From a virus: a DNA stretch of 22,959 nt. A program made the position numbers and the translations under genes. How positions within the stretch are numbered: position 1 is the stretch's first letter; each line of letters opens with the position of its first letter. The DNA is taken from IMG/VR virus record IMGVR_UViG_3300006919_015809, positions 1 to 22,959 of that record; one strand, 5' to 3'. The notes beneath the pieces were generated by a model. It searched no databases, had not been told where the DNA came from, and worked only from the letters and a program-made list of their open reading frames with translations. Shown here piece by piece: positions 11,009 to 22,730 of the stretch.

Positions 11009-11740
11009 CTAAATTTCAGTAACTTCTTTTCTTAGTTTATTTAATTTTTCTTGGTCTATTTTTTCACAACTGTATTTTTGCTGTATTATTTCTTCAAGAA
11101 TCTTACTAGACTCTTCTGATAGTCTTGAAATTAAGAAATCTTCAATGTCAACTGCTTCAAAAGAAGATTCTGAATAAAATCTCATATTAGAGCCACTGGT
11201 TGTGGCTATGAAGCCACTAGCATCTTTTTCATTTTCTGAATTAGCTCCTAGATAATTACCATATGACATTCCTAAGCTATACTTAGATCTATATAGTTTT
11301 ATATACTTGTTATAAAGAACACAGTTTTCTTTATTTTTGTAGAAAGAGCAATCATGCTCTCCACACCTATGTTCTTTCTTTTTCCAATGCTCACAAGATT
11401 TACATGGTAATTTATGATAATACAAATGCTTTCTTTTTAAGTCTAAAACTATGTTGTCAGCACATCTTGAAAAGTATAAGTTGTATTTTTCGTAATATGA
11501 CTTATCTTTTTGAAACTTAGGCAATGCTTTAATAAATTTTATCATAATCTCTTGTTCTAAATCTTCTTTTGAAAACCAGAAATTATTTCTACTTGAATGG
11601 TATGCAGCCTTACTAGAAGCTATTGACTCTAAGTCTTCCCACATCTTTTCTGGAGTAATTCCGCTAGGTAAATCTATATCTTCCCAATTGAACAAATTAT
11701 AACCTTCTAAGTATTCTAATGCTTTGATGTAGGTATTCAT
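11009..11740 (-). CDS. Sigma-factor-region-2-like protein with Cys-rich insert
   Basis: Probable phage RNA polymerase specificity factor. From the ATG at 11740 it is 243 aa; a TTG two codons upstream is possible, but ATG has GAGG nine bases before it. Residues about 58-106 resemble sigma-70 region 2: DLEQEIMIKFIKALPKF, then an aromatic-rich YYEKYNLYFSRCADNIVLDL and KRKH, the core that binds RNA polymerase clamp helices and the -10 element. Just after lies a cysteine cluster (Cys113, 116, 126, 131, 140) that may bind zinc. The C-terminus begins like region 4 (ISRLSEESSKILEEII) but ends without a helix-turn-helix, so -35 recognition appears absent, as in T4 gp55. Its location next to packaging genes suggests a late-gene sigma. 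It overlaps the preceding gene by about 44 bases. Similarity is by eye. Confidence 0.55.
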   Translation of the reverse strand: MNTYIKALEYLEGYNLFNWEDIDLPSGITPEKMWEDLESIASSKAAYHSSRNNFWFSKEDLEQEIMIKFIKALPKFQKDKSYYEKYNLYFSRCADNIVLDLKRKHLYYHKLPCKSCEHWKKKEHRCGEHDCSFYKNKENCVLYNKYIKLYRSKYSLGMSYGNYLGANSENEKDASGFIATTSGSNMRFYSESSFEAVDIEDFLISRLSEESSKILEEIIQQKYSCEKIDQEKLNKLRKEVTEI

Positions 11741-12269
11741 TAGCAACTACCTCATCGGAAGGTGATATTCCAACAAAATACCTACAAGATTCTTTTATTC
11801 TTTTGCAAAAGCTATTACAACAATTTATGCCTATGCATGTAATGATATCTCTTTCAAGACTATTGTATAGTACCTCTTCAAAGATAAAATCGAAAAAATC
11901 TTCATTTTTTTTAAAAATTTTACAAGAGCTTATTTGTTCATTTTGGTGATTTTGATTTGTATCTACTATTTTAACCAAGAATAGGGGTTCTTGGCTAGTC
12001 TTTGTTACAAATGTCTTTATATCTATACTAGCAAAAGCTTGTTCGTTGAAGCAGGATATTACGCTTGATATGTTCGTGAGTCTACATAAGAAAAAAGCCT
12101 TTGCCCCATTTTTTAACCTATTAATAATCTTATAAATTATTTTTCTATTATAGTAGTGCTCATCTTGAGCGTCTATTAAATATATAGATGTTTCATCATT
12201 GCTACTTAATGCAACGGACATGTTTTCATAAATTGGTTTTCTGATTATATTGAGAGTATCTACTTCCAT
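11697..12269 (-). CDS. Unrecognised protein with degenerate methyltransferase-like features
   Basis: About 190 aa from the ATG at 12269, two bases after the dUTPase stop; an in-frame GTG at 12296 would overlap dUTPase and is less likely. No confident family. The C-terminal part (about residues 135-190) resembles the tail of N6/N4-type DNA methyltransferases, where a strand and FxGxG motif precede a helix and a [GR]-x-F-[IV]-G-I strand. Here these read as ITCIGINCCNSF and CRYFVGISPSDEVVANEYL. An YLIDAQDEHYY segment near residue 30-40 sits where DPPY would be expected, but the catalytic pattern is absent. If the relation is real, the enzyme is dead or has changed function. Cysteine content is high. 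It shares 44 bases with the sigma-like gene downstream. Confidence 0.45.
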   Translation of the reverse strand: MEVDTLNIIRKPIYENMSVALSSNDETSIYLIDAQDEHYYNRKIIYKIINRLKNGAKAFFLCRLTNISSVISCFNEQAFASIDIKTFVTKTSQEPLFLVKIVDTNQNHQNEQISSCKIFKKNEDFFDFIFEEVLYNSLERDIITCIGINCCNSFCKRIKESCRYFVGISPSDEVVANEYLHQSIRILRRL

Positions 12270-14719: not shown

Positions 14720-15851
14720 TTAAAAATTCTCCTTCTTTTCTTAAGTAGTATTGTCCACCTACTATAGCAAAATCTCCTACATTTATGTATTCCCAAATCG
14801 TACTTTTATTCTCTGTATCAACATGAGCTATCATGAAACCATTATTCCAAGGTTGACCGTTTGCATAAGAGGCATCTCTAACATGGAGACAGCCCAACTG
14901 ATGCCAAAGATAGCTTCCATAGGTGTGGTTGTGCATAGAGTATGCTAGATATTTGTGATGATGGCCGTTGACTCCGGGCAGCCCAACTTTATTTCTAGTC
15001 TGAGGATAGTGGTCAACTATGAATGAATCATAATAAACTTTGTTGTTTTTTGCGACTTCTTTTTTTGACTCAGATGCAGTCCAAGTGTGCAAGTCGCCTT
15101 TAGCTATATAATTTATTTTAAATTTATCTAAGCCAAATATATCAGAAATCTTCATTCCATGAATAGAATTTAAAACATCCATTAGCGCTGGTGAATTACT
15201 AATTAGGTGCTTTAGAATTCTTTCATCATGGTTCCCTTCTATTAAGTCGAACTCTGCAGTTTGGCAGGCTTCTCTAATAGGTTTTAATATTTTGTCGTGA
15301 GTAAACTTTATTCTACCAGAAGCATCCCACTCTCTTGGATCTACGAAGTATTTTCCAAATTCTGGAGCATCAAATAAGTCTCCTCCAATAATTATGTTGT
15401 CTGGTTGAACTCTTTTTATTGTGTCAACTAAAACTCTTAAAACAAATGCATCACACATTTTATCATGCACATCTGAAAATATTACACATGTTTTAAATCT
15501 GCCTTTGTTAGCTCTTGGCTTTTTATACTTGCCAGCCCAACTTTTTCTTTCTTTAGATAGATTTTTAATCGCTTCGTATTCTTCGTGTCTAGCAATTAAG
15601 TTTGATATTTTCCTTTGAGACCTTGATGGAATTAGATTTGCTGAAGATTTTAACTGTGTAAAGGTTCCAAAGTGTTTTTCTACAATAGATCTAGGTATGT
15701 TTGTTACTTTTTCCCAACTAATTCTAGTTAGTTCAGTTTCTAGCCCTGAAGCGGCCCATTTTGCTATTTCAATTAAATCACTCTTTGAGAGTCTTTCTTT
15801 ATCAAAACTTTGACCTTTTTCTATTTTCTTAATCCATCTGTTTTTTGACAT
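14712..15851 (-). CDS. Calcineurin-like metallophosphoesterase with DNA-binding-like N-terminus
   Basis: A 379-aa two-metal phosphoesterase. The core from about residue 118 has all the family motifs: SDVHD (126-130), GGDLFD (156-161), GNHDE (206-210), an IVDHYP segment near 278-283, and NGHHHKY (295-301). The first 115 residues are helical and basic. Residues about 45-80 (WEKVTNIPRSIVEKHFGTFT followed by QLKSSANLIPS) resemble the small helical repeats found attached to HNH and homing endonucleases, which bind DNA. That suggests a nuclease or DNA-end phosphatase, but members of this superfamily also act on proteins or nucleotides. It begins at an ATG four bases from the IMPDH-like stop and overlaps the reductase by 8 bases, so it belongs to the nucleotide-metabolism transcript. 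Confidence 0.88.
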   Translation of the reverse strand: MSKNRWIKKIEKGQSFDKERLSKSDLIEIAKWAASGLETELTRISWEKVTNIPRSIVEKHFGTFTQLKSSANLIPSRSQRKISNLIARHEEYEAIKNLSKERKSWAGKYKKPRANKGRFKTCVIFSDVHDKMCDAFVLRVLVDTIKRVQPDNIIIGGDLFDAPEFGKYFVDPREWDASGRIKFTHDKILKPIREACQTAEFDLIEGNHDERILKHLISNSPALMDVLNSIHGMKISDIFGLDKFKINYIAKGDLHTWTASESKKEVAKNNKVYYDSFIVDHYPQTRNKVGLPGVNGHHHKYLAYSMHNHTYGSYLWHQLGCLHVRDASYANGQPWNNGFMIAHVDTENKSTIWEYINVGDFAIVGGQYYLRKEGEFLID

Positions 15852-17908: not shown

Positions 17909-18811
17909 CTATTCCTGCAATGCTATTTTTAAAGCACTTGCTAATTCTCTTATCTGCGTCTGTGCATCTGGTGAGCTTCTTAAAAGTAATATTCTGTCAA
18001 AAGCTCTCTTAGAGGCTGTTAGCCAAACTTTTGACATCATGTTTTGAGTTAAGTTGACTCTAGCTTCTTCTGGGGCAACATCTTTTAAGAATCTATTATA
18101 TATAGATAGCGACTCTTTTGTGTTTTTTAGATGTAGTCTTATATATTTTTCTTGTTTTTCTGTTGGCAAATATTTACCAGCACCCTGTTTGATTGAGTCG
18201 TCTGGTCTAGCCTTAAATCTGTCTATCAAATAGAAGCTTGGTTGGGAGTCTACATATCTTCTGGATACTTCGTTGTATGTGCAGCCAACAGTGCTCTTCA
18301 TTAGTTGTCTAAGAATAAAAATAGGGGCCTCTATAAGTACAGTTTTACTATCTGTTTCTACTAGCTCCTCTGGCTCTATTCCTTGTATTAGAGATAGCTC
18401 TGATTTATGCATTAATGTTAAACATGAGTGTGGGCATTTTTCTGATATAGCCCTAACTATTCTATAGTAATTTTTAATTGGTATCTTGTTTTTAAGCCAA
18501 CCATATAGAGAGTGCTCAATGTAATACTTGGAATCATCCTCTTTTCTAAATATCATATCTGCACTTCTCTCTGGGCAACCCATAAATTCTGCCATATTTT
18601 GGAAGTCTTGTTGGGAAGACATCACAGTCATTGCTCCAAATCTAACATGAGTAAATGGAGTAAAGTGATTGTGTTCAGCTAGATATCTAATAAGCCTAAT
18701 GTCTCTATTTGTAATTTTATTTTTAATTTTGTCAAATGAAACCCTAGCAGCGTTTACTACTGTTAAATCATTGTTTTGGTTATCTATTCTTTTTACTGAT
18801 ATTTTTGACAC
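17909..18811 (-). CDS. thyX: Flavin-dependent thymidylate synthase with unusual signature
   Basis: Makes dTMP from dUMP with FAD, methylene-THF and NADPH. Family marks are AARVSF (21-26), the HNHFTPFTHVRFGAM segment (47-61), the core APIFILRQLM (162-171) and the C-terminal LLLRSSPDAQTQIRELA block carrying the dUMP-binding Arg. The hallmark RHR-x7-S motif is not intact: the stretch at 168-186 reads RQLMKSTVGCTYNEVSRRY, keeping NE.SRRY but lacking RHR. An extra segment of about 95 residues lies between the FTHVRF strand and the core, making the protein 300 aa instead of about 220-250. The start is GTG with AAGGAG upstream. From memory, marine sequences with a similar RQL-K-x(n)-NEVSRRY variant exist, so this is probably a functional subgroup, but activity is not certain. 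Confidence 0.88.
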   Translation of the reverse strand: MSKISVKRIDNQNNDLTVVNAARVSFDKIKNKITNRDIRLIRYLAEHNHFTPFTHVRFGAMTVMSSQQDFQNMAEFMGCPERSADMIFRKEDDSKYYIEHSLYGWLKNKIPIKNYYRIVRAISEKCPHSCLTLMHKSELSLIQGIEPEELVETDSKTVLIEAPIFILRQLMKSTVGCTYNEVSRRYVDSQPSFYLIDRFKARPDDSIKQGAGKYLPTEKQEKYIRLHLKNTKESLSIYNRFLKDVAPEEARVNLTQNMMSKVWLTASKRAFDRILLLRSSPDAQTQIRELASALKIALQE

Positions 18812-18819
18812 AGCTCTCC

Positions 18820-19086
18820 TTATGTATTATCTTCTTGTCTAAAAGGAAAATAAAAGTTATTTCCAAAAGAATCTATTATATCGTCTAAATCCTTGGTTTT
18901 TTTCTTTTTTTTTGTAACTAGTTTTACTTTTTTTTTGCTTACTTTATTCAGTCCTCTAGCTTTTTCAAGTATAATCTCTTGCCTAGCTTTTCTGCTAAAA
19001 TTTTTGCACATATAATTTGAACACAAGAAGAGAATGAAAGATTCTTTTCCATCTCTACCACAAATTGGACATTTGTTATTTTCCAA
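18820..19086 (-). CDS. Small zinc-ribbon protein with Lys-rich tail
   Basis: An 88-aa protein not assigned to a named family. Cys6 and Cys9 (CPICG) pair with Cys22 and Cys27 (LCSNYMCKNF) in a plausible zinc ribbon. A strongly basic stretch follows (KKKVKLVTKKKKKTK, about 50-65) and an acidic/aromatic end. The start is TTG at 19086, eight bases after AAGGGG. The nearby ATG at 19091 is in another frame and does not open a useful gene. Zinc ribbon plus polylysine suggests nucleic-acid or RNA-polymerase binding, but that is inference. It is the first gene after the hairpin-rich gap and runs straight into thyX (stop and GTG nine bases apart). Confidence 0.7.
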   Translation of the reverse strand: MENNKCPICGRDGKESFILFLCSNYMCKNFSRKARQEIILEKARGLNKVSKKKVKLVTKKKKKTKDLDDIIDSFGNNFYFPFRQEDNT

Positions 19087-19377
19087 TGCATAAACCCCTT
19101 TTTTATATGTTAGTCAGAAGATAGAGAATTAATACCCATTTCTGACTGAGCCTTTCCCAACTCTAACATAAATCTAAGTGCAACTTTGTTGCTTCGCACA
19201 AAGAACGAAAAGGCTGGCCTTGGTAGCCCCAAGAAAATTTTTTTTGGCTATGCCAAATCTTAGGTAAACCCAAGAAAAATTAAACATAGTTTATTTAGCA
19301 GTTGTTAAACTAATTAAATCTTTCTTCTCCGGGTGAGAAACCTTTCCAAATCTTATTTTATTTCGCTATGCGAAATC
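19087..19377 (-). other. Gene-free, hairpin-rich intergenic region
   Basis: No convincing gene fits in these 291 bases. They hold many short palindromes: GCAAC-TTT-GTTGC (19180-19192), CTTGG-N5-CCAAG (19219-19233), TTTGGC-TAT-GCCAAA (19243-19257), CTTAGG-TAAA-CCCAAG (19259-19274), TTTAGCA-GT-TGTTAAA (19294-19309), TTCTC-N5-GAGAA (19325-19339) and TTTCGC-TAT-GCGAAA (19361-19375). Several come in pairs that keep loop and flanks but swap stem bases, as expected of conserved RNA structure. The region could be a structured leader for the thyX-to-terminase transcript, or a set of processing sites. No tRNA cloverleaf was seen. Confidence 0.6.
19112..19147. repeat. Inverted repeat upstream of the zinc-ribbon gene
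   Basis: AGTCAGAA at 19112-19119 is repeated inverted as TTCTGACT at 19140-19147, with a 20-base A/T-rich loop. It lies 26 bases before the TTG start of the downstream minus-strand gene, where an operator or a leader hairpin could act. The spacing puts the two arms about 2.7 helical turns apart. Confidence 0.5.
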
Positions 19378-19392
19378 TTAGCTTGCTAAGAT
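19361..19392 (-). repeat. Two adjoining hairpins spanning the stop of the 82-aa gene
   Basis: A perfect 8-bp palindrome, ATCTTAGC-TT-GCTAAGAT (19375-19392), covers the stop codon of the 82-aa gene. It is joined, sharing one base, to TTTCGC-TAT-GCGAAA (19361-19375). On the minus strand the second stem is followed by A-rich rather than U-rich sequence, so this is not a canonical terminator. RNA 3'-end protection or a processing site is possible. Confidence 0.6.
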
Positions 19393-19626
19393 ATCTTCTT
19401 GTATTTTTCTCAGCGGCCAAATTCTATTTTTTGAAACTTTTCTTTCTGGTCCAAATTTAATTTCTTTGATGCTGTATCTTAATTTTTTTATATTTGCGTG
19501 TAAGAACTTTTTTATTTTTATTTCATTAATTGGAGTTGGAAAGAAGTAATCAAACTGAGAAATAAAAGGTGGTTCAAGTCCTTTAGTATCAATGATTACA
19601 GTAACTCTTTTTGCGCTAATTAACAT
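19378..19626 (-). CDS. Hypothetical 82-aa basic protein
   Basis: I do not recognise this protein. It is basic and lacks cysteine, signal peptide and membrane segments. The N-terminal VTVIID and the later INEIKIKKFLHANIKKLRYS suggest a small alpha/beta fold. The ATG at 19626 has only a weak AGGA about 11 bases upstream. It stands alone between two hairpin-rich gaps, the usual setting of small phage accessory genes expressed early. Its AT-rich codons match the phage block. Confidence 0.5.
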   Translation of the reverse strand: MLISAKRVTVIIDTKGLEPPFISQFDYFFPTPINEIKIKKFLHANIKKLRYSIKEIKFGPERKVSKNRIWPLRKIQEDILAS

Positions 19627-19799
19627 GAGCTTAGTGTCCTAAGTAATAAAAGTTTTTTGATATATCGTTCTAAACAAGTTTTGAGTATTTAGCAATGCCA
19701 AATCAATTGGTCAGAAGAGTAAAGTCGCAAACATGTGTTATTTAGTGTGTTTCTGATAGAGAAAAAGGTTTATTTAGCAGGTGCTAAACATCTAAACAT
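19627..19799 (-). other. Short intergenic gap with hairpins related to those at 19,087-19,377
   Basis: No gene. It contains TTTAGCA-GG-TGCTAAA (19773-19788) and an imperfect relative at 19688-19702. Both resemble the element at 19294-19309, including the shared flank TATTTAGCA. No clear -35/-10 pair for the 82-aa gene is visible, though A/T-rich sequence near 19655-19675 could serve. Confidence 0.5.
19766..19788 (-). terminator. Possible weak terminator after the DUF2203-like gene
   Basis: Twelve bases past the TAG of the 152-aa gene, the minus strand forms TTTAGCA-CC-TGCTAAA. TAAACC then precedes a run of five T residues. The stem is A/T-rich and the T-run is displaced by several bases, so termination would be inefficient at best. 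Confidence 0.35.
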
Positions 19800-20258
19800 C
19801 TAAAAGTCTATCAATCGAGAACAAGCTAAATTTTCCTGAAGCTGTCTCCAGTATCTAAATTTATTATCATTTTTAGTAATTGATATGCATACTGGTATAT
19901 TTCTTCTTTTTGAGTAGAAAGTTATAATGCCATTTTTAATACTTGTAAATTCCCCCCCCAGATTTTCTACTTCTAAAACATAGTCGTTGAGAGAGTTTAC
20001 AAGGTTTTTCATTTCAAAAGAGAGTAATTCAAGCGTCCTAAGTAGTTCTTTTTGCTCTTCTTTTTCTAATTCTAGAATGTTGCTGGTGATTACATTTATT
20101 TTTGTTCTAATTAGAATTAGTTTTTCATGCTTTTCTACAGCGCTTTTCATTATTGAGCAAAGTAATGGAGCGAGTTTATTTGCAGAGTTAATATCAAGAG
20201 GCTCAGGCCATGAACTTTCAGGAAAGAAAGTTGCCATGAAACCTTCAGCATCATTCAT
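19800..20258 (-). CDS. DUF2203-like protein
   Basis: From the ATG at 20258 (AAGGA seven bases upstream) the product is 152 aa; a GTG at 20273 in the same frame is possible but deeper in the previous gene. The layout recalls the DUF2203 family. An N-terminal DINSANKLAPLLCSIM helix corresponds to the family's F-T-xx-EAN-xx-LP-L. A long two-helix coiled region follows (about 35-95). The C-terminus reads LGGEFTSIKNGIITFYSKRR and then VCISITKNDNKFRYWRQLQE, matching the family pattern ELG-x-V-K-xxxx-GL-V-DF-P ... C-W-xx-GE-x-x-x-x-W-H. The family's function is unknown. The match is from memory and diverged. Its start overlaps the secreted protein's stop by 8 bases. Confidence 0.5.
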   Translation of the reverse strand: MNDAEGFMATFFPESSWPEPLDINSANKLAPLLCSIMKSAVEKHEKLILIRTKINVITSNILELEKEEQKELLRTLELLSFEMKNLVNSLNDYVLEVENLGGEFTSIKNGIITFYSKRRNIPVCISITKNDNKFRYWRQLQENLACSRLIDF

Positions 20259-20736
20259 CGCATGATCCTTCACAGATAATCAGTGCCGCACAATCATATA
20301 GGTGACGAGGAGGAAATCCATGTGCATGTACCGTAGGCAGAAGAACAAAGCTGCCACATTCAGTGGGTGTGTATGTCAAAGTGGCAAAACCACTGAAGTC
20401 TGCTGAATCTTCAGCCACAATGCTTCTTCCATTGTGGTTGGTGAGTCTGAGTTCAAAGCGAGTGCCCGGAGGCCATCCTTCAAAGAAAATGCCGTAAGTG
20501 AAGGAGCCATCACAACATAGGTTTTCGTTGTAAACAGAATATGCCGGATCATTTGGTCCAGTGTAATCTAATTCATATCCTTCGTAGCTAACCTTGGGCT
20601 TACAAGGTTTAGCTGTACTAAAGTTTTCTTCACTTTGTGAAGTGCTCAAAATTGAGCTTGTGAGATTTTGACTAGCTGAAGCTGATGATACTAGTATATA
20701 TGCAATTATTGCAGAGAACAGTACTAATTTGTTCAT
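20251..20736 (-). CDS. Secreted cysteine-rich protein
   Basis: A 161-aa protein with a clear Sec signal peptide: MNK, a hydrophobic core LVLFSAIIAYILV, and a likely AxA-type cleavage after SSASA (about residue 21). There is no lipobox. The mature part starts with a Ser/Thr/Asn-rich spacer (about 22-42). A compact domain with seven cysteines follows, including a CC pair (LCCDGSF) and a C-terminal C...C-E-G-S-C-D-E, probably disulphide bonded outside the cytoplasm. No known fold is recognised; the strand pattern (FTYGIFFEGWPPGTRFELRL) suggests a beta-sandwich. Its base composition is visibly more G/C-rich than its AT-rich neighbours, a sign of recent acquisition. The ATG at 20736 overlaps the upstream TAA as TAATG. 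Cell-envelope action, such as surface remodelling or superinfection exclusion, is conceivable but unproven. Confidence 0.65.
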   Translation of the reverse strand: MNKLVLFSAIIAYILVSSASASQNLTSSILSTSQSEENFSTAKPCKPKVSYEGYELDYTGPNDPAYSVYNENLCCDGSFTYGIFFEGWPPGTRFELRLTNHNGRSIVAEDSADFSGFATLTYTPTECGSFVLLPTVHAHGFPPRHLYDCAALIICEGSCDE

Positions 20737-20930
20737 TATTGTTGTCCCTCTCCTTGGTCAAAAAAAGATTCTAATCTTCTTTCTTGTTCTTCTCTTTGTT
20801 TTAAAGCAACGTATTCACAAACTTCACAATGTGGATGACCATACTTATCTTTAGTAATACGTCCTATATGTGTAGTTATATAAAAACACCTTCTACATTG
20901 TGTGAAATCTATTTTAAATTTGTTTTTCAT
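20736..20930 (-). CDS. Small four-cysteine zinc-finger protein
   Basis: A 64-aa protein with Cys12/Cys15 (CRRC) and Cys35/Cys38 (CEVC) about 20 residues apart, preceded by His31/His34-type positions (YGHPHCEVC). This is a probable zinc ribbon. The C-terminus is charged and Gln/Glu-rich. The ATG at 20930 has AAGGA five bases upstream and follows a plausible promoter, making it the first gene of the minus-strand transcript. The downstream secreted-protein gene is coupled through TAATG. A host-takeover or transcription-related role is typical of such small phage proteins, but nothing here proves it. Confidence 0.65.
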   Translation of the reverse strand: MKNKFKIDFTQCRRCFYITTHIGRITKDKYGHPHCEVCEYVALKQREEQERRLESFFDQGEGQQ

Positions 20931-20984
20931 ATTTTTCCTTTACTGTATAATCGTATTTTATAGTAGCACAGAAGGGTTGTAAGT
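20931..20984. promoter_or_regulatory. Divergent promoter region
   Basis: These 54 bases separate two divergent genes. On the plus strand a consensus TATAAT at 20946-20951 is preceded by TG, and AGAAGGG lies eight bases before the ATG at 20985. On the minus strand TATAAAAT sits around 20962-20955, about 25 bases before the gene start at 20930. No good -35 box is visible for either, so extended -10 promoters or a phage-specific factor are possible. Confidence 0.55.
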
Positions 20985-21467
20985 ATGCGAAGAAAAAGAA
21001 AATGCGTCGAATGTAGTAAAAAGTTTATAATCTGGTTTTACGATAAACAATTTAAAGACATTTGTAAAGATTGTCACAGAGATCACATCAAGAGAGAGGT
21101 CGCCGAAAAAGATGAATCGTTTTACAAAAATTTTATTCAAAAGAACTCTTTCAAGTGTATATGTGGCAAAGAATATAGCTTAGAAGAAGAAGACTTTTGT
21201 AAACATTCTAATAGACATGTAAAACAATTATTTGACTTTGGTATAAATAGACGCGGAGAAGAGTGGGTCGCAAAAGAGATCAATAAAGCGGCTCGTATTA
21301 GGTGTAAAAATTGCAATAAGACAGCGCCTTCAACATTTGAGTCCCTAGACCCTAGATCAAAGATTATTTTTACTAAACCAGATATTGCTAAGATGATCGA
21401 ACACCAAAATAAAAAAAGAGAAGAAGAGAGAAATTCTAAACATAAAAATTGGTGGGAAGATATTTAA
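20985..21467 (+). CDS. Multi-CxxC zinc-finger protein
   Basis: A 160-aa protein not assigned to a family, and the only gene on the plus strand of the AT-rich part. It carries three Cys-rich sites: CVEC at 7-10 with CKDC at 27-30, CIC at 58-60 with a C-x-H-x-x-x-H segment at 72-78 (FCKHSNRHV), and CKNC at 107-110. The last 30 residues are highly charged (EHQNKKREEERNSKHK). The fold is likely a string of zinc ribbons that bind nucleic acid or RNA polymerase. AT-rich codon use matches the minus-strand phage genes, so it belongs with them and not with the GC-rich array to its right. No terminator is evident after the stop. Confidence 0.7.
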   Translation: MRRKRKCVECSKKFIIWFYDKQFKDICKDCHRDHIKREVAEKDESFYKNFIQKNSFKCICGKEYSLEEEDFCKHSNRHVKQLFDFGINRRGEEWVAKEINKAARIRCKNCNKTAPSTFESLDPRSKIIFTKPDIAKMIEHQNKKREEERNSKHKNWWEDI

Positions 21468-21773
21468 AGTGTTTAATTATAGAGATAGCCGACAAAAGCA
21501 ACCATTTGTAGTTTAACAAATTAAAACCTTCACAAACTCAGAATTGACCCCCCCGCCCCTATCGTCTGGTGTCCGATCCTAGGCTCTATGAACCCCTCCC
21601 CTATACCTTGTCATTCTATCCCGATTCTAATCTTTTCTTTCGACGTAACCCTAGAGTTTTTCAGTACTTATGGCTATCCATCCTAGATTCTTCTCCCGGT
21701 AGCTTGCGCAATCCCCTTGTCTGGAGGGATACTGTTGTAGGCCCTAGCAACGGATCACCGATTGGAGGATACA
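21468..21773 (+). other. Composition junction and leader of the short-gene array
   Basis: The first about 70 bases are AT-rich like the phage. From about 21,548 the sequence switches to C-rich (a seven-C run followed by GCCCC) and stays G/C-rich to about 22,770. I see no convincing gene between 21,548 and 21,773. A frame from a GTG at 21569 is open to 21955 but lacks a ribosome site and its codon positions do not look coding. Four CCTAG/CCCTAG motifs are scattered through it. No clear promoter is visible. Confidence 0.5.
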
Positions 21774-21890
21774 ATGAATCATGGACGATTCAATCCGCAG
21801 GAGTTCATGTTCGTCGTGCAGATTGCGTTTCTCGGAACTGTGCTCCTGTATGTGGGACTTGTCGCTCTCCGATTCAGGAAGAAAAGCTGA
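21774..21890 (+). CDS. 38-aa single-span membrane mini-protein
   Basis: A very short gene with strong start signals: GGAGG exactly five bases before the ATG at 21774. The product begins MNHGRFNPQEFMF, continues with one hydrophobic span (VVQIAFLGTVLLYVGLVAL) and ends in a basic RFRKKS tail, so the N-terminus would face out and the C-terminus in. Third codon positions are G/C-biased like the following genes of the array, unlike the competing longer frame. It is the first of four short genes with similar junctions. Holin-like, regulatory membrane peptide or toxin-like roles are all possible; nothing identifies one. Confidence 0.7.
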   Translation: MNHGRFNPQEFMFVVQIAFLGTVLLYVGLVALRFRKKS

Positions 21891-21904
21891 AAGGAAAGAT
21901 CGAA

Positions 21905-21962
21905 GGGGAGTTGGAAAGGTTCCAGCTCCCCCCCCTTCTCCCCTCTCGAACCTGAAAGGTTC
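21905..21962 (+). promoter_or_regulatory. Repeated leader, copy A (hairpin, C-tract, RBS hairpin)
   Basis: Stem GGGGAGTTGGAA (21905-21916), loop AGG and stem TTCCAGCTCCCC (21920-21931) pair fully with one G-T wobble. A C-run, TTCTCCCCTCTC and a second perfect stem follow: GAACCT-GAA-AGGTTC (21948-21962). The Shine-Dalgarno bases AAAGG lie in that second stem-loop, six bases before the ATG at 21966. Relative to copies B and C, stem bases change in matched pairs. Confidence 0.85.
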
Positions 21963-21965
21963 ACC

Positions 21966-22148
21966 ATGATCAAGTGCGCCCGTTGTGAGGAAACCATTGA
22001 GCGTGAGATTCTGGAGCGTATGCTCCCGATCACCGATCTCGAAGACGTCGTGTGCTCCACTTGTACTTCTCAGGAGTATGCTGAAGGCGGATTCATTCAC
22101 TCTCTCGCCGAAGTGCTCTTCGGAATCGACGAAGAGTGGACTTACTAG
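21966..22148 (+). CDS. 60-aa zinc-ribbon-like protein of the array
   Basis: Second gene of the short-gene array. CARC (residues 4-7) and CSTC (about 30-33) give a C-x2-C ... C-x2-C pair that could bind one zinc. The region between is acidic and helical (EETIEREILERM). The C-terminus ends in EEWTY. No family is recognised. Codon third positions are strongly G/C, unlike the phage block. It is translated from the ribosome site in leader copy A and followed eleven bases after its TAG by leader copy B. Confidence 0.75.
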   Translation: MIKCARCEETIEREILERMLPITDLEDVVCSTCTSQEYAEGGFIHSLAEVLFGIDEEWTY

Positions 22149-22158
22149 AAAGAACCAA

Positions 22159-22217
22159 GGGGGACCGGAAAGGTTCCGGTCCCCCCCCCCTTCTCCCCTC
22201 CCGGACCTGAAAGGTTC
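22159..22217 (+). promoter_or_regulatory. Repeated leader, copy B
   Basis: Perfect 12-bp stem GGGGGACCGGAA (22159-22170), loop AGG, TTCCGGTCCCCC (22174-22185), then a C-run making ten C in all and TTCTCCCCTCCC. The RBS hairpin GGACCT-GAA-AGGTTC (22203-22217) follows with one G-T wobble. The ATG is at 22221. Nearly identical to copy C. Confidence 0.87.
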
Positions 22218-22220
22218 ACC

Positions 22221-22469
22221 ATGCGAATCGACCTGATCCAGCAAGCCAACGCCAAGATCGAAGCTCTCGGAATCGTGACGGACAAGATCGCGAAGCTCCG
22301 CACCAAGAGGAAGGCCCTGATCTTCCGCTTCCTGAATGCTCGTCGGGAGCAGGAACTCAAGCTCCTCAAGCGAGAGGCGAAGATTCTTCGGAGTGAAGCT
22401 CTCGCTTCTCTCGGAATCGCGAAGGACTCCATGAACTGGACCCGGCGGAAGATCGAAACTCTCTACTAG
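22221..22469 (+). CDS. 82-aa helical basic protein of the array
   Basis: Third gene of the array. It has no cysteines. Almost the whole product should be helical, with heptad-like Leu/Ile spacing (IQQANAKIEALGIVTDKIAK, then LLKREAKILRSEALASLG) and many Arg/Lys. It looks like a coiled coil that could bind nucleic acid or oligomerise. No family is recognised. Codons are G/C-rich at third positions. The ribosome site is AAAGG in leader copy B, and leader copy C begins eleven bases after its TAG. Confidence 0.75.
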   Translation: MRIDLIQQANAKIEALGIVTDKIAKLRTKRKALIFRFLNARREQELKLLKREAKILRSEALASLGIAKDSMNWTRRKIETLY

Positions 22470-22479
22470 AGCGAACAAA

Positions 22480-22536
22480 GGGGGACCGGAAAGGTTCCGG
22501 TCCCCCCCCTTCTCCCCTCTCGGACCTGAAAGGTTC
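22480..22536 (+). promoter_or_regulatory. Repeated leader, copy C
   Basis: Same stem as copy B: GGGGGACCGGAA (22480-22491), AGG, TTCCGGTCCCCC (22495-22506), then three more C, TTCTCCCCTCTC and the RBS hairpin GGACCT-GAA-AGGTTC (22522-22536). The ATG is at 22540. The differences from B are the C-run length and one base in the following pyrimidine stretch. Confidence 0.87.
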
Positions 22537-22539
22537 ACC

Positions 22540-22725
22540 ATGAACATGACTCTCACCTACTTCAAGAAGATCGCCGACGTTGGACCGGGCGGAATCAAGT
22601 GTCCGTGCTGCTGCAAGTGGGGTACGTTCGTCGGATCGAAGCAGTCGCCGAAGGTCAAGAAGGCGGTGCGCAAGTGGACCCGCTCCAAGCTCAAGCGAGA
22701 GCTGCAGCGCGAACTGCAAGGTTGA
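22540..22725 (+). CDS. 61-aa Cys-cluster basic protein of the array
   Basis: Fourth and last gene of the array. A CPCCC cluster (about residues 21-25, in GGIKCPCCCKWGTF) could ligate zinc or another metal, perhaps as a dimer since no second pair is present. The C-terminal half is strongly basic and helical (KVKKAVRKWTRSKLKRELQR), suited to nucleic-acid binding. No family is recognised. The ribosome site is AAAGG in leader copy C. An intrinsic terminator follows five bases after its TGA. Confidence 0.72.
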   Translation: MNMTLTYFKKIADVGPGGIKCPCCCKWGTFVGSKQSPKVKKAVRKWTRSKLKRELQRELQG

Positions 22726-22730
22726 CCAGT

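Follow-up and report, generated by a model that had tools for sequence, protein, structure and literature searches.

Genomic setting of the locus

The window analyzed here is a whole virus record of 22,959 bases, a fragment of the genome of a tailed phage (an uncultured bacteriophage). The minus strand carries the main ORFs from position 20930 down to 31. Along this strand lie ORFs of 64, 161, and 157 amino acids (aa), a gap (gap B), an 82 aa ORF, a second gap (gap A), an 88 aa ORF, and the ThyX gene. These are followed by genes for an epimerase, IMP dehydrogenase, and others, and then by a portal, a terminase, and a long repetitive fibre. Part of the gene names along this operon are what we take the translations to indicate; the Thy1 assignment of the ThyX gene was confirmed by a Pfam match. 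No tRNA genes were found in the window. The genes and gaps considered below are:

19627-19799, minus strand: gap B, 173 nt, between the 157 aa and 82 aa genes
19378-19626, minus strand: 82 aa gene, separating gaps A and B
19087-19377, minus strand: gap A, 291 nt, between the 82 aa and 88 aa genes
18820-19086, minus strand: 88 aa gene, downstream of gap A, with a TTG start, AAGGGG upstream, and a cysteine-rich start

Gap A contains no ORF of at least 50 aa on the coding strand. Across 19087-19799 there are 13 overlapping ORFs of at least 20 aa and, except for the 82 aa gene, each has at most 47 aa. One of the ORFs inside gap A (19163-19273, minus strand, 36 aa) contains PKIWHSQ, and about 29 of 30 bases of its DNA agree with the beginning of a tail-like ORF on an unrelated contig (L003:1617-1660); this likeness is either chance or a captured gene start.

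The 82 aa protein has no family match, and its model, made from the single sequence (pLDDT 75), has no significant fold match. A second look gave NE1680 (Z 6.5) as the best match, followed by T7 Gp2 (4.9); both are within the noise range stated for the tool, so we draw no function from the structure. The 157 aa protein (19800-20273) matches DUF2203 (E 2.7e-8) and has no match in an annotated phage collection. Further upstream, a short gap between divergent genes (20930-20985) has TATAAT-like sites on both strands and is likely a two-way promoter. Beyond it, a G+C-rich stretch of mini-ORFs (21540-22730), several of them with a hairpin leader around GAAAGGTT, adjoins the AT-rich phage genes.

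Two families of hairpins

The gaps contain two families of short palindromes. F1 is TTTNGC-loop-GCNAAA (exact search pattern TTTNGC-N2..6-GCNAAA), with a loop of 3 or 4 bases and five copies (19243, 19294, 19361, 19688, and 19773), in one of which one arm is imperfect. F2 is CTTRG-loop-CYAAG, with a loop of 2 to 5 bases and four copies (19219, 19259, 19377, and 19630). In the order in which they occur along the minus strand, these and one further stem are:

19773-19788, minus strand: F1 hairpin TTTAGC-ACCT-GCTAAA, an exact pattern match
19688-19702, minus strand: F1 hairpin TTTGGC-ATT-GCTAAA, with a G-U pair on the minus strand and an A/C mismatch on the plus strand
19630-19643, minus strand: F2 hairpin CTTAG-GACA-CTAAG, pair probability 0.92 on the minus strand
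19377-19390, minus strand: F2 hairpin CTTAGC-AA-GCTAAG, joined to the F1 hairpin at 19361 and overlapping the 3′ end of the 82 aa gene
19361-19375, minus strand: F1 hairpin TTTCGC-ATA-GCGAAA, with a stem that extends to 19360-19376
19294-19309, minus strand: F1 copy TTTAAC-AACT-GCTAAA, with one imperfect pair on the minus strand
19259-19274, minus strand: F2 hairpin CTTGGG-TTTA-CCTAAG, joined to the F1 hairpin at 19243
19243-19257, minus strand: F1 hairpin TTTGGC-ATA-GCCAAA, mean pair probability 0.88 on the minus strand and 0.0 on the plus strand (60-nt context)
19219-19233, minus strand: F2 hairpin CTTGG-GGCTA-CCAAG, an exact pattern match
19112-19147, minus strand: hairpin AGTCAGAA...TTCTGACT, an 8-bp stem shortly upstream of the 88 aa gene, pair probability 0.85 on the minus strand

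In the direction of the mRNA, gap B contains two F1 hairpins, the second of them with a G-U pair, followed by an F2 hairpin. Gap A begins with an F2-F1 pair that overlaps the end of the 82 aa gene and continues with a long AT-rich hairpin that absorbs the 19294 copy. After this hairpin come another F2-F1 pair, an F2 hairpin standing alone, and the AGTCAGAA...TTCTGACT stem. The two-hairpin unit (F2 then F1) thus occurs twice in gap A, at 19243-19274 (32 nt) and 19361-19390 (30 nt). The likely ribosome-binding site of the 82 aa gene, an AGGA ten bases ahead of its start codon, lies inside the F2 hairpin at 19630.

The F1 copies fall into subtypes that extend beyond the stem. Those at 19243 and 19361 lie in a direct repeat of 27 nt (24 of them identical) that also takes in an ATCTTAG flank, and those at 19294 and 19773 have 20 of 22 nt in common. 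The 19688 copy resembles a join of the two subtypes, with TATTTAGCA from one and ATGCCAAATC from the other.

An initial annotation of the window had proposed that the two gaps carry one related set of elements next to small genes and that the changes in their stems are matched, and our analysis supports this. Its TTTGGC-TAT-GCCAAA and TTTCGC-TAT-GCGAAA palindromes lie at 19243-19257 and 19361-19375 with the ATCTTAG flank in common, and its TTTAGCA-type copies were confirmed at 19294, 19688 (imperfect), and 19773. The CTTGG-type stems, described as occurring twice with variation, are present and variable, but two was an undercount of the four F2 copies. The same annotation likened the setting of the gaps to the leaders of the G+C-rich array. 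The two do have the GAAAGGTT word in common (one occurrence in gap A on the minus strand, six in the array on the plus strand), but we saw no further link.

Repetition and clustering compared with chance

The hairpins are real, local, and repeated. Exact F1 has four matches in the window, all inside the gaps (the fifth copy, at 19294, departs from the pattern once), and all four exact F2 matches in the window are in the gaps or touch them. An equal frequency in coding or shuffled sequence, which the initial annotation had named as a sign against such a family, was not seen. In coding sequence, exact copies occur only where one touches a gap. In dinucleotide-shuffled gaps, exact F1 has a mean of 0.014 matches with none of 1000 shuffles reaching four, and F2 has a mean of 0.014 and a maximum of one against the four observed, figures that overstate the surprise since both consensus patterns were written after the copies had been seen. 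With the same reservation, shuffles of the whole window never placed four exact F1 matches within 600 nt (0/400; the most in any 600 nt was two), and four F2 matches scattered over the whole shuffled window occurred in 3/400.

Repeat scores that use no consensus agree with these counts. Within gap A, the 27-nt repeat reaches a score of 18, whereas the highest score was 15 among 200 shuffles of the gap and 11 among 60 coding stretches. The repeat across gaps A and B reaches 16, and the best of 200 shuffles gave 12. The plain density of hairpins is raised only mildly and is a weaker signal than the repeats: there are four stems of at least 6 bp against 1.47 in shuffles (61/1000 as high) and 12 of at least 5 bp against 5.0 (19/1000 as high).

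That the palindromes are chance products of AT-rich DNA would fit this mild density and the few whole-window shuffles that reach four F2 matches, but shuffles fail on the common sequence and the clustering (0/1000 for F1, 0/200 for the repeats, 0/400 for four F1 in 600 nt) and on F2 within the gaps. We consider chance an extremely improbable explanation.

Folding, strand preference, and paired changes

Folding was compared on both strands. On the minus strand, whose folding the initial annotation had proposed as a check, gap A (19087-19390) folds at -76.6 kcal/mol against -63.8 kcal/mol in shuffles (z -2.75), with 0/100 shuffles as low; on the plus strand the z-score is -1.43 (6/100 shuffles). 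Gap B on the minus strand gives z -1.85, with 9/200 shuffles as low. In a second run with 30 shuffles each, the gap A minus strand had z -3.86, the lowest of the stretches compared but not far from the 26 others taken from the window, whose z-scores ran from -3.12 to 1.08; the coding stretch 15000-15299 also folds (z -3.12).

Individually, F1 hairpins are predicted to form on the minus strand in four of the five copies (0.88 to 0.99, 60-nt context). The 19294 copy, which has a mismatch on the minus strand and a G-U pair on the plus strand, is predicted as the tip of a longer hairpin at about 19272-19325. The 19377 F2 hairpin has a pair probability of 0.0 on the minus strand locally and pairs in the centroid of a longer stretch. 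Position, repetition, clustering, and a foldability that favors the coding strand are direct observations at this locus.

The variable inner pair of F1 on the minus strand is G-C, C-G, A-U, A-U, and G-U, all of them standard, and the variable pair of F2 is A-U, G-U, G-C, and A-U, with 0/20 F2 cells non-standard. Over all cells counted, 2/55 are non-standard on the minus strand versus 5/55 on the plus strand. Among 500 shuffles of the arms of the five F1 copies, 25 reach the observed covariation score, 54 the paired fraction, and 253 the observed count of pairs with both sides changed. The covariation is internal, coming from five paralogous F1 copies, and is a weak indication of paired change; part of the stem symmetry may have been inherited by duplication.

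These features also bear on whether the palindromes could be DNA operators for a dimeric phage regulator, with no role as RNA. Operators could well look like these dyads, which are 15-16 bp long and lie close together in non-coding DNA beside promoter-like motifs. A rigid dimer rarely tolerates a variable spacer, though, and here the spacer varies between 3 and 4 bases. Also at odds with an operator, the inner pair changes in both half-sites together, two distinct palindrome families are joined head to tail, and no regulator was recognized among the scanned proteins except a sigma-like one (described below). We judge operators to be quite unlikely.

Rfam had no family at gathering score anywhere in the window and, in 19000-19900, two matches up to E 5, both far below gathering score. 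One hairpin with its tail may resemble a Cas9 tracrRNA, and no Rfam match supports this likeness. Between 18800 and 21600, three terminator-like stems were found against 1.2 expected. No F1 hairpin is in the predicted list of intrinsic terminators (a G+C-rich stem followed by a T run); the F2 hairpin at 19219-19233 (plus strand) and another stem at 19192-19180 (minus strand) are weakly terminator-like.

Occurrence in related phages

One near-identical record was found (36,828 bases, 99-100% protein identity, one substitution across the stretch compared). It begins inside the G+C-rich mini-ORF stretch and contains four exact F1 matches, none of them outside these two gaps, and an additional F2-like stem at a distant position. 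Two relatives of 65 kb and 24 kb have 68% TerL identity, and both end inside the epimerase gene, so the hairpin locus itself was not seen in them. The 65-kb relative has one F2-like match and one F1-like match, unpaired at the variable position; the 24-kb relative, scanned for F1, has no exact match. The expectation that the palindromes would flank small genes elsewhere did not hold, since the near-identical 36.8-kb record has no exact F1 outside the gaps and the single F1 match in the 65-kb relative is unpaired. In that same relative, an extra stretch precedes the epimerase in frame (L019:4567-5265, minus strand) and ends like what we presume to be an intein C-terminus. The terminase and ribonucleotide reductase genes of this relative are broken up into blocks as well, which makes several inteins or introns likely there.

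In viral contigs, the F1 pattern with its flank was found in the near-identical record and in one other contig (L003), where it sits within the first codons of an 841 aa ORF whose start resembles what we take to be phage tail proteins. Given this position inside the ORF, we treat that match as chance and reject it as a true copy. Viral-contig searches with the 22-nt F1 subtype pattern and with the 88 aa, 82 aa, and ThyX proteins returned the near-identical record only. TerL gave five loci including the two relatives, and a metallophosphatase-like protein gave the same phages and one distant locus.

An epimerase alignment contained 128 relatives, of which 80 were kept; leaving aside the near-identical record, these provide 79 loci with more distantly related epimerase genes (862,628 bases). 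None of the 79 has matches to the 88, 82, 157, 161, or 64 aa proteins, and only one (L094) has both patterns, with one F1-like and one F2-like match far apart. A scan of genome contigs with the IMP dehydrogenase gave two loci (43% and 30% identity). The annotated phage collection had no DNA match to 18800-20300, and TerL matched 42 of its records, all under 60% identity.

The stems draw no evolutionary support from these genomes, because the two relatives end inside the epimerase gene and the near-identical record is too similar. The hairpins could be neutral or selfish, multiplied by slippage or template switching at hairpins when the phage replicates, with their symmetry kept by that copying. 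The likeness between copies outside the stems (over 27 nt and 22 nt), the 19688 copy that looks like a join of two subtypes, and the lack of a diverged relative that shows conservation are all in keeping with this. Set against it are the tight packing of phage genomes, coding regions free of exact copies except for the one that overlaps the end of the 82 aa gene, and an F2 hairpin exactly on the ribosome-binding site of the 82 aa gene. On balance we find neutral spread unlikely.

CTAAATA motifs and a sigma-like protein

The gaps also contain a late-promoter-like motif:

19292-19298, 19686-19692, 19739-19745, and 19771-19777, minus strand: CTAAATA

The four occurrences are all on the minus strand and none is on the plus strand (shuffle mean 0.106; 0/1000 shuffles reach four); elsewhere in the window there is one per strand. 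Because three of the four double as the right arm of an F1 copy, the F1 and CTAAATA counts are not independent. No seven-mer stood out clearly in a scan for a general promoter motif.

A protein encoded at 11009-11746 is sigma-like. It matches Pfam Sigma70_r2 (E 2.7e-4, 21.1 bits, below the cut-off of 24), and its best structure matches are nearly all sigma factors, although weak (E 8.4e-3 at best, from a model with pLDDT 53). Orthologues with 51% identity occur in two relatives, and there is no match in the annotated phage collection.

The gaps might therefore be promoter regions in which CTAAATA acts as a -10-like element read by the phage sigma factor to switch on the genes downstream late in infection, with the palindromes as by-products or accessories. 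The minus-strand excess of the motif and the sigma-like matches suggest this. CTAAATA, beginning at -12, is the late promoter of the T4-like phage Aeh1 as described in PMC1524935, and phage sigma factors that read one short element exist, as reported for phiEco32 (PMC8948821). However, 0/15 CTAAATA are in non-coding sequence in the 65-kb relative despite its sigma orthologue, and in the near-identical record 4/14 are, just the four gap motifs. The sigma score is under the Pfam cut-off and the protein model is poor. A promoter also leaves the F2 hairpins and the F1 copies at 19243 and 19361, which have no CTAAATA, unexplained. We regard promoter regions as a somewhat unlikely account of the gaps.

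Proposed role of the hairpins

Our tentative preference, held with a little less than even confidence, is that the palindromes are cis-acting mRNA stem-loops (for processing, stability, or translation control) in a long minus-strand operon. Gaps A and B would be untranslated stretches inside this operon, and the two families would have spread by local duplication, followed by paired changes in the stems. The hairpins may mark points for the processing or protection of the polycistronic RNA and may also set the translation of the small genes downstream; the 19630 F2 hairpin, which holds the likely ribosome-binding site of the 82 aa gene, would suit translation control. We infer that the hairpins are transcribed, fold in vivo, and have a control function.

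The loop lengths, 3 or 4 bases in F1 and 2 to 5 in F2, vary as a hairpin allows and count for RNA stem-loops. The minus-strand mismatch at 19294, the low local pairing at 19377, the mild folding of gap B, the absence of an Rfam match, the marginal covariation, and the folding of the coding stretch 15000-15299 count against them. RNA stem-loops are compatible with promoters, and the hairpins possibly lie beside late promoters.

A different RNA explanation is that gap A, rather than being a leader, is an independent non-coding RNA, specific to the phage and about 300 nt long, that consists of the two duplicated hairpin families. The phage sigma factor would express it late from the CTAAATA promoters, and it would act in trans, for instance by occupying an RNA-binding protein of the host or phage as a decoy, or in anti-defence. 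RNA anti-CRISPRs (Racr), which are similar to a CRISPR repeat and expressed as solitary small RNAs, are described in PMC10651486. We think a trans-acting RNA very improbable here.

If functional, the cis-acting stem-loops would be a compact example of a phage multiplying one RNA element within an operon, and the internal duplicates would serve as a built-in test of stem conservation. If neutral, the hairpins show how palindromes spread in untranslated gaps. The locus also points to a phage sigma factor and a possible promoter motif. Within the reach of our searches, all this concerns a single uncultured phage lineage.

Comparison with known systems

A literature search by general terms and one motif found no description of these particular hairpins. 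TIGR arrays were considered as the identity of the set and were set aside because the hairpin spacing is irregular.

The T4-type late promoters (TATAAATA; CTAAATA in Aeh1) resemble the gaps in that the same 7-mer occurs four times on their coding strand, but palindromes are no part of T4 late promoters as described in PMC1524935. A genome-wide placement of CTAAATA upstream of late genes was not seen: no occurrence in the 65-kb relative is in non-coding DNA, and in the near-identical record only the four gap motifs are. These promoters also go with a phage-encoded sigma factor of the gp55 type, for which the candidate here is the sigma-like protein at 11009-11746, with the sub-threshold Pfam score and weak fold matches given above.

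The ESAS elements of cluster K mycobacteriophages are 17-bp inverted repeats with a variable spacer, placed beside a 13-bp start sequence at many genes (PMC3203893). The likeness lies in imperfect, phage-specific inverted repeats upstream of some gene starts. ESAS occur at many genes with 17-bp repeats, whereas the F1 and F2 stems are 5-7 bp and are confined to two neighboring gaps. The 13-bp GGGATAGGAGCCC of ESAS/SAS, compared by its description in PMC3203893, is absent from gaps A and B.

The putL and putR RNAs of HK022, as described in PMC9378689, also have two adjacent stem-loops in a phage transcript and are present twice. A put RNA antiterminates in cis and has about 70 nt with two long stem-loops, while the F2+F1 unit has about 31 nt. 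The translational operators of T4 genes 32 and 43 are similar in having RNA structure just upstream of, or overlapping, a ribosome-binding site. In the account of PMC3014915 they bind the gene's own product and are not repeated families, whereas F1 and F2 are repeated.

Repeated intergenic hairpins in phages are an already known kind of feature, and the T4-type hairpins are the nearest described. In T4 and other phages, CUUCGG hairpins are repeated mainly in intergenic regions, and one known role is the stabilization of a T4 mRNA from its 5′ end (PMC8948821). A UUCG loop is found in 0/9 of our copies (minus-strand loops ATA, ATA, ATT, ACCT, AACT, AA, TTTA, GGCTA, and GACA). Both sets are short stem-loops repeated mainly in phage intergenic regions; by the description in PMC8948821 the T4 CUUCGG hairpins conserve the loop and vary the stem, whereas F1 and F2 conserve the stem and vary the loop.
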